Positions 3,493 through 30,869 of a stretch of DNA of 33,224 nt are shown here, piece by piece. The stretch comes from Meiothermus rufus DSM 22234 (GTDB lineage: Bacteria; Deinococcota; Deinococci; Deinococcales; Thermaceae): NCBI RefSeq assembly GCF_000423425.1, contig NZ_AUHY01000031.1:1-33224 (forward strand), written 5' to 3'. The first letter of the stretch is position 1; each line of letters begins with the position of its first letter. The notes under the pieces were generated by a model. It had not been told where the DNA came from. It saw nothing but the letters and a program-made list of their open reading frames with translations, and did not search any database. The position numbers were made by a program, and so were the translations under genes.

Positions 3493-5649
3493 CTAGCGCC
3501 GCAATACTTGCCGCAAGCGGGGCAGTAGCGAGACCTCCGAGCCAGGCAGGCGCAGGCTACCGGTGCCCGAGAGCACCCCCAGCGGCACATCAATCCCCGA
3601 GCGCGTGGGGCGCACCAGCAGCAGGTTACCGCTGGCATCGGTGTAGCCCCCCAGATAGTCGCCGGGGGTAATCTCGTCGTCGCCATCCACGTCTTTCCAG
3701 GCAATCACCACATAGTCGCCCGGCACCAGGTCGGGGATGCTATAGGGCGCTCTAAGGCCCGCCTGGCTCACGATGCTAACCCCAGAGCGACTGGCGTCAA
3801 TGTCGTTTCCGGCTACGAAGAGCGCGACCACCGCAGTACCCTGCACGCTAGGGGGCGGGGGTGGCGCGGCCACCTGCAGGGGCAGGCCCACCGTGCGGGT
3901 AAGGCTGCCGCCACTGCCGCTAAGGGTGAGGGTATAGCTCCCCTGGGCCGGGGTGCTATCCACCTGCAAGCGCAGGGTGCTGCTGTTGCCCGAAGCGGGG
4001 TTGGGGCTCAACGTGTGACTAACCCCAGCCGGCAGACCGCTCAGGCTCAGGCTGACCGGGTCGGCAAAGCCGGCAATCCGGGCGATGTTGACCGTAATCT
4101 CCACGCTGCTACCCACAGCAGGGCTGAGGCTGGCTGTGGCTGGGCTCAGCTGCAAGGTGAAGCTGGGGGTTAGGCTACCGGCGGCGCTCACCGCGGCCTG
4201 AGCGTTCACCAGACCGGCCCCGCAGTCGCTCCCCTGAAGGGTGGGAAAGCTAGAGGGAATCCGATCCGAAGGGCGGCCCGTACACTGGCTCGAGTTCAGC
4301 GGAGCAGCCGTGCCCTTGAGGATGTCCAGGGCCTCGGCCAGGGTCAGGTCGGGCCGCCGGGCCTTCATCAGGGCGACCACCCCCGCCACGTGGGGCGCGG
4401 CCATGGAGGTGCCCTGATAGAAAGCGTAGACAAACTGAGCAGCCCCCGTTTCTCTGTCGTCCTTGAGCAAGCTCAGCACCCCATCGGCATACCCATCCCC
4501 ATTGCGGTCAACGGTGACATCCCCCCCAGGGGCCATCACATCGATGCGGGCCCCGTAGTTGGAGTAGTAGCTGCGCAAGCCCCGGGTCTCGGTGGCCCCC
4601 ACCGTAATCACCCCACTGCAGCTGGCCGGGGTAAAACCGGCGGCGTTTTCCGCACTGTTGCCCGCGGCCACCACCAGGATGGGCTTTTGCGGCTGGTTGT
4701 TGGCCTGATTAATGGTGTCCTGCCAGGCCGGGCTACAGGCTCCTCGTCCGCCCAGGCTCAGGTTGACCACCTGGGCCGGATAGGGGTTGGGGGGCACCCC
4801 GGAAACCGAAAGCCCCACTGCCCAGCGCAACCCGGCCAGGATGTCGGCATCGCTGCCGCCGCCCACCCCCAGGGCGCGCACATGCACCAATCGGGCCCCC
4901 CAGCTCACCCCGGCTACCCCCAGGTTGTTGTTGCTGCGGGCGGCGATGGTGCCGGCCACGTGGGTGCCATGGTACCCGCTGAGGGCCTCAGGAGGCGCTC
5001 CCGGGGCCACGTTGCCGGTGTCCTCGGGGTTATTGTCCCGCCCATCCCCATCGTTGGCGATGCGGGGGTCGGAGATGAAGTCGTAGCCCAGCACCGGGGT
5101 GGGCAGGTCGGGGTGGGCGCTCACGATGCCGGAGTCGATCACCGCCACCGTAATGGTTCGGCTGGTACCGTCTTCGATCTCCCAGGCCTGGGGCAGGTGG
5201 ATGGCCGGATAATGCCATTGATATTCGTAGAACTCATCGTTGGGGGTTTTGAAAAGCTGGCGGATGTAGTTGGGCTGGGCATAGAGCACATCAGGCCGGC
5301 GGGCCAGGGCCGCCACCGCAGCCTGGGTCTGGGCCTTGTCGGCCACCCCCCGGTAGAGGGCCAGGCCACCCGGCTCGAGCTCCTCCTCCCGTTGCAGCGC
5401 AACCCCGCCCGCCTGGAGGCTTTCCACCCGCTGCAGGCTTAGGCCCGGGCGAAACTTCAGCAGCACCTCGCCGGGCACGAAGTCGTCGGGCTGGCTTTGG
5501 GCAAAAAGGCGCTCGGAGGTGCGAATGGATGGGGCGCTGCTGCTTGAGAAAAACCCCACCTCCCCCGAGATGCTGCCCGGCCCACCCCCGTCACAGGCCA
5601 CCAGGCTCACCGCCAACCAGAGAATCCCCAGCTTGTATGCTCGCACCAC
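3493..5649 (-). CDS. Subtilisin-like (S8) serine protease lipoprotein with C-terminal Ig-like domains
   Basis: A 718-aa exported protease. The N-terminus is a lipoprotein signal (hydrophobic stretch, then LVAC with the lipobox Cys near residue 19), so the mature protein should be anchored on a membrane. A fervidolysin/thermitase-like propeptide follows (VPGEVLLKFRPG ... LYAQPNYI). The S8 catalytic triad is complete: Asp172 in VAVIDSGI, His227 in GYHGTHVAGT, Ser415 in GTSMAAPHVAG, with the oxyanion Asn in AAGNSAENA. The C-terminal 250 residues hold an Ig-like module and, after a Pro-rich linker, a segment with an Asp-rich WKDVDGDDEITPGD loop that may bind calcium. Starts are two tandem GTGs (5649, 5646) after AGGAGG; spacing favours the second. 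A Pho-box-like direct repeat lies upstream. Confidence 0.93.
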   Translation of the reverse strand: MVRAYKLGILWLAVSLVACDGGGPGSISGEVGFFSSSSAPSIRTSERLFAQSQPDDFVPGEVLLKFRPGLSLQRVESLQAGGVALQREEELEPGGLALYRGVADKAQTQAAVAALARRPDVLYAQPNYIRQLFKTPNDEFYEYQWHYPAIHLPQAWEIEDGTSRTITVAVIDSGIVSAHPDLPTPVLGYDFISDPRIANDGDGRDNNPEDTGNVAPGAPPEALSGYHGTHVAGTIAARSNNNLGVAGVSWGARLVHVRALGVGGGSDADILAGLRWAVGLSVSGVPPNPYPAQVVNLSLGGRGACSPAWQDTINQANNQPQKPILVVAAGNSAENAAGFTPASCSGVITVGATETRGLRSYYSNYGARIDVMAPGGDVTVDRNGDGYADGVLSLLKDDRETGAAQFVYAFYQGTSMAAPHVAGVVALMKARRPDLTLAEALDILKGTAAPLNSSQCTGRPSDRIPSSFPTLQGSDCGAGLVNAQAAVSAAGSLTPSFTLQLSPATASLSPAVGSSVEITVNIARIAGFADPVSLSLSGLPAGVSHTLSPNPASGNSSTLRLQVDSTPAQGSYTLTLSGSGGSLTRTVGLPLQVAAPPPPPSVQGTAVVALFVAGNDIDASRSGVSIVSQAGLRAPYSIPDLVPGDYVVIAWKDVDGDDEITPGDYLGGYTDASGNLLLVRPTRSGIDVPLGVLSGTGSLRLPGSEVSLLPRLRQVLRR

Positions 5650-16873: not shown

Positions 16874-17167
16874 CTACTTGGTCTTAGGGGGGGGGTTGGG
16901 CGCTGGGCGGTAGTTGCGAATGGGGGCAAAGATAAAACGGTTGAAGATAACATAGGCCGCTAGGTAGACCCCCATCTGCACCCAAAAATCGTTGAACAGG
17001 GTAACCCCGTTGCTACCCAAAAGGGTCATGAGCAAGGTTAACGGGGTGACCACTATAAAAGCCCGCAGCACCAGGCTGGGAAAGACCTTGAGCATGTCCC
17101 GCCCCGAAAGCGGAGGGCGCTGTTGCGCCTTGCGCTTGAGTTTTTCTTCCCGGCGTTTCTTACCCAT
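16874..17167 (-). CDS. Small two-TM membrane protein of unknown function
   Basis: A 97-aa protein with a very basic N-terminus (MGKKRREEKLKRKAQQR) followed by two probable membrane helices (about residues 30-50, VLRAFIVVTPLTLLMTLLG, and 62-80, FWVQMGVYLAAYVIFNRFIF) and a Pro-rich tail. Both termini should face the cytoplasm by the positive-inside rule. I do not recognise a named family. The Pro tail is encoded across a run of nine G on the plus strand (16887-16895), in frame here but only a few codons from the stop, so slippage would barely change the product. Confidence 0.75.
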   Translation of the reverse strand: MGKKRREEKLKRKAQQRPPLSGRDMLKVFPSLVLRAFIVVTPLTLLMTLLGSNGVTLFNDFWVQMGVYLAAYVIFNRFIFAPIRNYRPAPNPPPKTK

Positions 17168-18562: not shown

Positions 18563-21086
18563 TTAGTCTAAAGTGCACTGGTATACCTTGATGTCCGGCA
18601 GGCTACGGCTGCTCTCGTTACCCAGCGAGTCCCGGGCAATCAGGGTGAGGCGCACCACCTGGCCCTGGAAGCAGTCGTTGCCAAAATCGGCAAAACCACC
18701 GATCAGGTTGCTGGGGTTGTTCTGGCTGGGCGTCCAGTCCAGGTTGCCGCTGGTGGTGCTGGTGCTGAGGGTAACATTGCTGCGCCAGATCGCGGTGCTG
18801 CCAGGACGGAAGGAGGTAGCCCGCCAGATGTAGGTGATGGGGGTGTTGCCCTCGGGGTCGGTGGCGCTGGCGGGGGCGGTCAGGCGGGTGGTCCATCTGT
18901 ATCCGTCAGTGTAGTTAGGCGTGCTGGGGGACAGGCTGCCCAGGGTGATGCTGGGGGGCAGGTTGGCCGGGGCCGGGTTGATGGTAATGCTCACGCTGGC
19001 CGAGGCAGTAAGCCCCTGGGGGTCGGAGGCGCTAAGGGTCAGGGTGCGGGGGCCGGTGCTGCTGAAGGCAACCTCGGTATTGCAGCCCGTGCGGGGGAAG
19101 CCGGGGTCGCTGGGGTTGCTGCTGGTCCAGCGGCAAGCGATGGCGCCGGGGCCAGGGTCGGGGCCTTCGTTGAGGTCGGTGGCGCTGCCCAGCAACTGCA
19201 CGGTCTGCCCCACGAAGAAGGTGGCCCCGGCCGTGGGCTGGGAGATGGAGACCACCGGGGGCGTGTTGATGACGTTCACCGTCCGGCTCGTGCTACCCTC
19301 GCGGCCCAGGAGGTCGCGGGCCGTCACCCGCACAGTGCGGAGGCCTGCGGTGTTGAAGCGGTAGAAGGCGGTGTGGCCTGAAACCCGGCTGGGGGCGGGT
19401 TCCCAGGTCAGGGAGCAGGAGACCGGGGGGCAGTTGCTGCCGGCGAAGTCGGTCACGTTGGCGGTGACCGTCCACTCGCGGTTCAGGTCGGCGTTTTCAT
19501 GGGCGCTCAGGGCGATGCTGGGGCCGCTCTCGCCCACGGCCAGGGCCCTGGATACCGCTGCAAAGGCATTGACCCGGCGCTGATGGCCCGAGACCCCCAC
19601 GCCCCCCACATGGGCGGTGTCGCGCAGGATGGCCCAGACCTCGTTGGCCCTGAGCGAGGGGTTGGCAGCCCAGACCAGGGCGGCCACACCCGCCACAAAG
19701 GGCGAGGAATAGCTGGTGCCAGCCCGCAGACGGGCCTGGTTGTCGCGGTTGTCGGGGTCGTAACCGGTCCACAGCCAGAACGGCCCGTAGATGTCCACAC
19801 TGTTGTCGTCGCGCTTGCTGCCAAAGTTGGAGAATGGGTCGCGGGCGGTGGCGTCGTGGGCCATTCCACCCACACAGATCACGGAGCGCGACTCGCAGGG
19901 GATGTGGGTGGAACCCTCGATACCCCCCCCCCCCGTTGTCCACGTTTTTGCCTGCGTTTCCGGCTGAGGCAAAGAGAAGCTTGCCAGTGGCTGCAACCAT
20001 GGCGGTGAAACCATCCACCACCTCGCTGGGGGCGGGGCAAAGGAAAAGGCAGGCCGCCTTGACCGCAATGTCCCAGCCCAGGTCGAGCTCGAAGCCAAAG
20101 CTCATGTTGATGATTTTGGGGTTGCCAAAGACGGTAGCGGTGACGATGCGCTCGAGGGTGGAGATGATGCCGATGAAGTCTCCCTGAAAGGGCACCGCCA
20201 GAAGCTCGCCGACCGGGCCGGCGGGGCCTGCCACACCAAAGCCGTTGTCCGGGCGGCCCATGGCCGAGGTGGTGACGTGGGTACCGTGCCAGGGGCAGGG
20301 ACGGCCATCACTGCAGCTGAGCGCGTTGGGCTCGTTCCAGCTTCCCACGACCTCCCGGGTTTCGGGGAAGTCGCCGCTGGGGGCGAATCCTCCGTCCAAA
20401 ATCATGATGCGCACCCTGTTGCTAAGGCGTCCGGCCCGCTCGAGCAGCCGCCAGGCGTCGCCCACCCCAATATCCTGGGCGCTGCCCCGGCTCATGTAGG
20501 TCCACTGGAAAGCATCGGGGCTGTAGGCCACGTCGGGGGTCGCCGAGGAGGGGGCTTCGCTGGTGCTTCCTGTTGCAATAGCCCCAGGGGTGAACACAAA
20601 GTTGGGGGTGACGGTCATTTTTTCCTGGTTGGCCTCGGCCAGCGCCACTGCCAGCAGTTGGGCCGCCGCCGGGCTCGAGGTGCTAAAGCGGCCCTTCAGG
20701 TCGGGCAGGCTCTGGTTGAGGCGCTGCAGGATGGCCTCCACCTGGGCTGCCGAGGGGTCGAGCTGCACCTGGTAGGTTTTGGGGGCATCGCCTGCTTCGG
20801 TCTGAGAGATGATGCGCCCCCCCCAACGGGCCAGGAAGTTGTTGAGCTTGGTTTCATCGTTGGTGCTGACCACCAGCTCGCCCAGCACGAAGTCCATGGG
20901 AATACCGCTCTCGCCGACCATGCGGGCCAGGGGGCGGGGGGTTCCATCGGGGCCGGCCAGGCTGGGCTGGGCTGGGGTGAGGCTGCTATCCACCGGGATT
21001 TGCAGGGTTCCGCTGGGCTTGACCGAACCACAGGCAGCCAGCAAAAGTAGCGAGCTTACAAACAGGGCTTTCCAAAGGTGTTTCAC
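18563..21086 (-). pseudogene. Subtilisin-like (S8) protease lipoprotein, frame broken at a G12 tract
   Basis: Joined across one shift, this is an 840-aa exported protease. The start is the GTG at 21086, eight bases after AAGGAGG; the lipobox is LAAC (Cys19). A propeptide region follows, then the S8 domain: Asp231 in RIMILDGGFA, His267 in PWHGTHVTTS, Asn in ASAGNAGKN, and Ser458 in AGTSYSSPFVAG. After that come Ig/PKD-like repeats (for example PPVVSISQPTAGATFFVGQTV). Asp, His and Asn lie in the first frame and Ser in the second. The frames meet at a run of twelve G on the coding strand (19923-19934). Eleven G would read NGGGGIEGSTH continuously; with twelve the first frame runs 142 codons further to a stop at 19497. 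As read, no active protease is made without slippage. It is the last gene of the SARP-led run. Confidence 0.88.
19923..19934. repeat. 12-base C/G homopolymer inside the protease catalytic domain
   Basis: Twelve Cs on the plus strand (G12 on the coding strand). It is the longest homopolymer I see in the window and sits exactly where the reading frame of the S8 protease breaks. Tracts of this length are classic slipped-strand sites. Confidence 0.95.
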
Positions 21087-21164
21087 GGTCTTCCTCCTTA
21101 GGTCTCCGGGTGTTGTGCCCAAAGGTAGAAGCTGCGGGTTGAACGAGGTATGAACGCAATATGC

Positions 21165-30035: not shown

Positions 30036-30869
30036 CTAAAGCCGCCCGCGGGTAAACCAGCGGGCCAGCAGGCTGGTCATCACAATAAGCCCCAGCAAAA
30101 CCACCGCCGCTGCCCAGGCCTGGCGGTGCCAGTCCTCGTAAGGGCTGATGGCATAGGCGTACAGGCGTAGGGGCAGAGCATCCATCGGCTGGCGCAGATC
30201 GAGGGTGAGAAGGGTGTTGCCAAAGGCGGTAAAAATAAGGGGGGCGGCCTCCCCCGCCGCCCGGGCCGTGGCCAGCAGCAATCCGGTCACCACCCCACCC
30301 CGGGCCGCCGGCAAAACCAGCGACAGGATCACCCGCCAGCGGGGCAGGCCTAGGGCTAGCCCAGCCTCGCGGATGTGCCAGGGCACCAGCTTCAGCACAC
30401 TTTCCGTGGTCTTGGCGATGATGGGCACCATGATAAAAGCCATGGCCAAGGCCCCAGAAAGGCCGGAGAAGGAACCCTGGGTCTTGACCACCAACACGTA
30501 GGCCAGAAGGCCCTTCAGGATGGCGGGCATTCCGTTGAGGGTGTCGGAAAGCGGGCGCAAGGTGGGGTTGAGCCGGTTATCGGGGTACTCGGCCAGCAGA
30601 ATGCCCGCCCCGATACCGAAGGGCATGGCGATGAGCAAACCCGTACCGGTGATGACCAAAGTGCCCACGATGGCTGGGGCCATCCCCCCCCCCAGTTCGC
30701 CGGGAGGCTTGGGGCCCTTGGTGAAGAAGTCCCAGTTGAGGGAGGAAAAACCATTGACCAAAGCATAGCCTAGCACCAAAGCCAGCGGCAAAGCGGCCAG
30801 AATGGTGCCGATGACAACCACCAACAGGATCAGGCGGTCGCGGGCGTAGCGGGCTTGCAGGCTGCGCAT
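30036..30869 (-). CDS. pstA: Phosphate ABC transporter permease PstA
   Basis: A 277-aa membrane permease with about six helices; the binding-protein-dependent transport core is seen in IVGTLVITGTGLLIAMPFGIGAG and the EAA-type loop in IREAGLALGLPRWRVILSLVLPAARGGVVTG. It pairs with PstC to form the channel. The ATG at 30869 has AGGAG before it; the open frame to 30896 overlaps only the Shine-Dalgarno and the end of pstC. The conserved LGGGMAPAIVG is encoded through a run of ten G on the coding strand (30684-30693), in frame here but a possible slippage site. Confidence 0.97.
   Translation of the reverse strand: MRSLQARYARDRLILLVVVIGTILAALPLALVLGYALVNGFSSLNWDFFTKGPKPPGELGGGMAPAIVGTLVITGTGLLIAMPFGIGAGILLAEYPDNRLNPTLRPLSDTLNGMPAILKGLLAYVLVVKTQGSFSGLSGALAMAFIMVPIIAKTTESVLKLVPWHIREAGLALGLPRWRVILSLVLPAARGGVVTGLLLATARAAGEAAPLIFTAFGNTLLTLDLRQPMDALPLRLYAYAISPYEDWHRQAWAAAVVLLGLIVMTSLLARWFTRGRL

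Follow-up and report, generated by a model that had tools for sequence, protein, structure and literature searches.

The window analyzed here, i.e., the whole stretch of 33,224 nucleotides from Meiothermus rufus DSM 22234, is one entire contig of a draft assembly (2.74 Mb, 121 contigs). On its minus strand, it carries a gene for a lipoprotein subtilase (S8) that is split by a run of 12 Gs (G12) (Table 1). By direct reading, C12 on the plus strand, corresponding to G12 on the coding strand, occupies exactly positions 19923 to 19934, and the flanks on the coding strand are GTGGACAAC and TATCGAGGG. The start codon is a GTG (21086 to 21084) preceded by an AGGAGG Shine-Dalgarno sequence. The open reading frame that includes this start (19497 to 21122, minus strand) stops 423 nt beyond the tract, and the assembled product ends about 141 codons past the tract. 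The downstream open frame (18563 to 20098, minus strand) reaches the natural C terminus, and no internal stop was present over the 453 codons of the out-of-frame 3′ half.

Table 1. Features of the split subtilase gene, with positions in the window
Feature	Position	Strand	Basis
Upstream frame: lipoprotein signal (LAAC), propeptide-like region, 5′ half of S8 domain, out-of-frame tail; about 529 aa	19497..21086	-	Start from AGGAGG and orthologue-start alignment
Catalytic Asp231 codon (ILDGGF)	20394..20396	-	D invariant in orthologue alignment
Catalytic His267 codon (HGTHV)	20286..20288	-	H invariant in orthologue alignment
Oxyanion-hole Asn377 codon (SAGN)	19956..19958	-	N invariant; aligns with AAGN of subtilisin BPN′
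G12 homopolymer: four Gly codons in upstream frame; frame-change point	19923..19934	-	Sequence read
Predicted RNA hairpin: 11-bp stem, -31.6 kcal/mol; matched by 1.8% of synonymous recodings	19850..19922	-	Folding
Downstream frame: 3′ half of S8 domain (catalytic Ser), followed by beta-rich C-terminal domains; 453 codons with the stop	18563..19921	-	Sequence; C terminus from orthologue model
Catalytic Ser458 codon (GTSYSSP), downstream frame	19712..19714	-	GxS invariant in orthologue alignment

The original prediction for this locus was that a 12-G tract divides an S8 protease, with Asp231, His267, and the oxyanion Asn upstream and Ser458 downstream in another frame. Both the coordinates and the frame split proved exact, and the residue numbers are correct when counted from the GTG start; the numbering of the triad was also confirmed on the 840-aa full-length protein given by read-through. 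A truncation at G12 without the catalytic Ser had likewise been predicted and is present in the assembly; with the GTG as the first codon, the product size is corrected to about 529 aa.

The two halves of the gene share the Peptidase_S8 profile of Pfam (PF00082; profile positions 39 to 155 in the upstream half and 162 to 278 in the downstream half), and both scored above the curated cutoff of 21.8 bits (25.0 and 46.9 bits, respectively). In common with PF00082 subtilisins, the Meiothermus gene has the Asp/His/Ser order, the oxyanion Asn of SAGN, and the GTS motif, and the orthologue profile matched subtilisin BPN′ at 2.9e-18. In contrast to those proteins, it adds a lipoprotein signal, a long propeptide-like region, and beta-rich C-terminal domains, and the copy as assembled is unable to make a complete triad: Asp, His, the oxyanion Asn, and Ser lie in one open frame in six full-length orthologues but not here. 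The window also contains a second S8 subtilase gene (3493 to 5649, minus strand), which is intact and has a fervidolysin-type prodomain.

A scan of the 2.74-Mb genome identified G12 as its longest G run. Runs of at least nine Gs numbered 20 (16 G9, 3 G10, no G11, and 1 G12), compared with about 390 expected under a first-order composition model; thus, long runs are strongly depleted. The same model (64% G+C sequence) gave about 20 runs of at least 12 in a genome of this size. Given the depletion of real long G runs, G12 is an outlier of this genome, though within the naive composition model. Runs of at least 11 Gs are also rare in the genus, any being present in 8 of 18 genomes.

Clear orthologues were available from eight genomes of Meiothermus and relatives, with identities of 78 to 84% upstream and 72 to 82% downstream (except for one short contig-end piece, 92%). 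None of the eight has a homopolymer at the tract position; all have interrupted glycine codons and are in frame there. The site is nine bases long in seven orthologues (GGCGGCGGC, i.e., (GGC)3, in four and GGTGGTGGC in three) and twelve in the remaining one (L008, GGCGGCGCCGAC), compared with 13 bases, counting the T, in the window. It follows that the G tract arose by substitutions together with a net gain of four bases relative to the common form; substitutions are needed because a length error alone cannot turn GGCGGCGGC into a G run.

The glycine codons lie in a loop that aligns with the subtilisin BPN′ loop following AAGN, and in alignments of more distant relatives, this loop has different residues and different lengths. 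As judged from these alignments, G12 grew out of a run of three Gly codons in this lineage alone, in a loop of variable length adjoining the oxyanion Asn. An AlphaFold model of one orthologue (L029) was rejected for loop placement (mean pLDDT, 65.8); the model was poor in the protease domain, and the BPN′ sequence alignment was therefore used. A search for a second copy of the tract in viral_contigs yielded one exact 21-base match, on an unrelated contig (L099) with no homology to the window, which we attribute to chance.

In one genome (G017), the orthologue is interrupted upstream of the tract site by an insertion sequence with an ISAs1-like transposase (assigned to this family by eye); the gene is thus dispensable in another species and open to loss. 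This element lies at about 1970 to 3080 of L021 (G017:C12), and the frame of its transposase changes near a minus-strand A6G6 run, a possible slip site.

Substitution patterns show that both halves of the gene continue to be under purifying selection. Pairwise dN/dS values between the 3′ half and intact orthologues were 0.19 to 0.30, compared with 0.17 to 0.31 when the intact genes were paired with one another. Codon changes specific to one lineage, counted over the 3′ half by a parsimony-like triplet method, had nonsynonymous-to-synonymous (N:S) ratios of 26:48 on the window branch and 15:35 on the sister branch (Fisher P = 0.57); the neutral expectation is about 2.9:1. Under a simple mixture model, the best estimates of the unconstrained share of the window branch were 0 to 12% (95% upper bounds, 16 to 27%; these bounds are approximate, given the few sites in the triplet method). 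An open frame over 453 codons combined with normal purifying selection implies that the break is recent or intermittent or that the tract length was miscounted. A constrained 3′ half is compatible with a fresh slip, with a miscounted length, and with phase variation private to this genome.

Our leading explanation, to which we assign a probability of roughly 0.45, is a recent out-of-register slip of a lineage-private G run, with switching not indicated as selected. In one lineage only, three consecutive Gly codons in a loop that tolerates length changes would have become an uninterrupted G tract through wobble-base changes and expansion, and slipped-strand mispairing would readily occur at such a run. 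The clone that was sequenced would then carry a tract length that is out of register, so that translation stops soon beyond the tract and the protein lacks the catalytic Ser; the break would be recent and probably reversible through the same slippage. Given that replication slippage at G runs is established elsewhere (PMC5084427), a genuine tract of 12 Gs would be expected to be unstable in vivo. In this explanation, the assembled tract length is inferred to be correct. A one-lineage recent slip or a length misread is most likely, rather than an evolved on/off switch, and the first two are nearly equally likely.

A sequencing or assembly miscount, in which the true tract length is in frame and the protease is intact, is thus a serious competitor. 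The assembly is a draft, every orthologue is intact at the site, and constraint on the 3′ half is undiminished; with both half-genes looking so healthy, it is quite possible that the gene is intact in the living strain. Pyrosequencing and semiconductor platforms are worse than short-read platforms at homopolymer lengths. On short-read platforms, homopolymer length calls degrade with length, already at 8-mers (PMC11140927), and calls worsen as the homopolymer lengthens (PMC8808543). Internal controls weigh on the other side. Twelve of the 20 runs of at least nine Gs had a coding signal (codon usage) on both sides, and the other 11 of these (9 to 10 Gs, including all three G10 runs) keep the frame; the remaining eight runs were at gene ends, intergenic, or ambiguous. 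Only at G12 among the 20 did strong same-strand coding signals switch frame from one side of the run to the other. Gross homopolymer error is thus not evident at 9 to 10 Gs, although these controls do not test accuracy at 12. In addition, a miscount alone leaves the existence of a G run at this site unexplained.

Two length controls occur on the same contig, i.e., a C10 run (30684 to 30693) within a PstA-like permease gene whose 286-aa frame is intact, and a G9 run (16887 to 16895) in a noncoding stretch. Elsewhere in the genus, a G20 run (L088 [G013:C21], 2018 to 2037) breaks the frame of a P1 peptidase gene that is present in all 18 genomes; the run is absent from all compared relatives and is probably an artifact of that assembly, an example that lends some weight to a miscount in the window.

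The suggestion that the tract is slippage-prone was right in principle: G12 is of slippage length and lies at the frame junction, and a change in its length switches the frame. A conserved on/off switch was not borne out. No tract is kept at this locus across species (0 of 8 orthologues with a homopolymer), which is the outcome that the original prediction had named in advance as refuting a conserved contingency locus. We also consider it unlikely that G12 is a real but private poly-G switch, i.e., a selected contingency locus at which replication slippage toggles a surface subtilase on and off in populations of this Meiothermus thermophile. In Neisseria, G tracts this long outnumber every other class of strong phase-variation candidate, and homopolymers of at least 8 are mostly variable (PMC5084427). 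The window shares with the G/C contingency loci of Neisseria and Campylobacter an intragenic G tract longer than 9, a frame shifted by a change of one base, and a surface protein as the product (here a lipoprotein), and both frames are maintained. Unlike at those loci, the tract is found in no orthologue, the eight orthologues encoding the same Gly residues by interrupted codons, and the length comparison drew on one genome per species. Mismatch-repair genes are present (two MutS_V proteins), and six further S8 subtilase loci in the genome are complete, so toggling one protease would not be an obvious phenotype.

A search of the available literature returned nothing relevant on phase variation or slippage in Meiothermus, and to our knowledge, homopolymer phase variation has hardly been looked at in this phylum. 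If the tract varies in living cells, G-tract phase variation would extend to nonpathogenic hot-spring thermophiles. If it does not, the locus cautions against taking a frameshift at a homopolymer for a switch when it is seen in one draft genome and in none of the orthologues.

It is highly improbable that RNA polymerase slippage or ribosomal frameshifting yields a little full-length protease. A precedent exists in the same phylum, since the polymerase of Thermus slips at T9 in dnaX (PMC5009743), where a homopolymer also lies at a frame junction, and the hairpin 3′ of the tract is predicted to be stronger than 98% of synonymous recodings. However, documented sites of polymerase slippage are A/T runs (PMC5009743, PMC6260861), and the full-length product of Thermus thermophilus dnaX is in the zero frame, whereas the protease has a G run and its full-length protein is out of frame. 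Restoring the frame requires the loss of one G or the gain of two in the RNA, but insertion of one is the favored error in the A/T reporters studied (PMC6260861); the ribosomal route requires a +1 shift. Unlike a slip site conserved where its product is needed, the run is missing from orthologues that are full length in one frame. The hairpin was rejected as a frameshift stimulator because it is also present in the tract-less L006 and absent in most other orthologues; it is probably incidental. Productive polymerase slippage, a further part of the original prediction, thus found no specific support. Overall, the predicted gene anatomy and slippage-proneness stood, and the conserved switch and transcriptional slippage did not.

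An old pseudogene can practically be dismissed: the assembly does show an interrupted S8 domain, and an insertion sequence breaks the G017 orthologue, but neither half has further stops or frameshifts, and the N:S ratios of the 3′ half are normal, with no sign of relaxed constraint.

A G tract of 6 to 15 Gs precedes a different, small lipoprotein gene in five Meiothermus genomes, about 43 to 54 bases 5′ of the start codon. Its lengths are 15 in L100 (G018), 9 in L101 (G017), 6 in L102 (G009), 8 in L103 (G016), and 9 in L104 (G005), and the second G016 copy (L131) has 10 Gs at the same place. The order is a TGTA-N8-TACA dyad and CATT, the G tract, and then a -10-like hexamer, with a spacing from dyad to hexamer of 13 to 20 across these loci. 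This tract could be a length-tunable promoter and is, on sequence grounds, a better phase-variation candidate than G12 of the window; a position-conserved, length-varying G tract in a promoter region is the better place to look in the genus. A related lipoprotein gene in L105 (G020), L106 (G007), and L107 (a second copy in G018) also has a G run upstream, but this one, of 4 to 9 Gs, differs from the tract above and follows an AAAAAGT motif.
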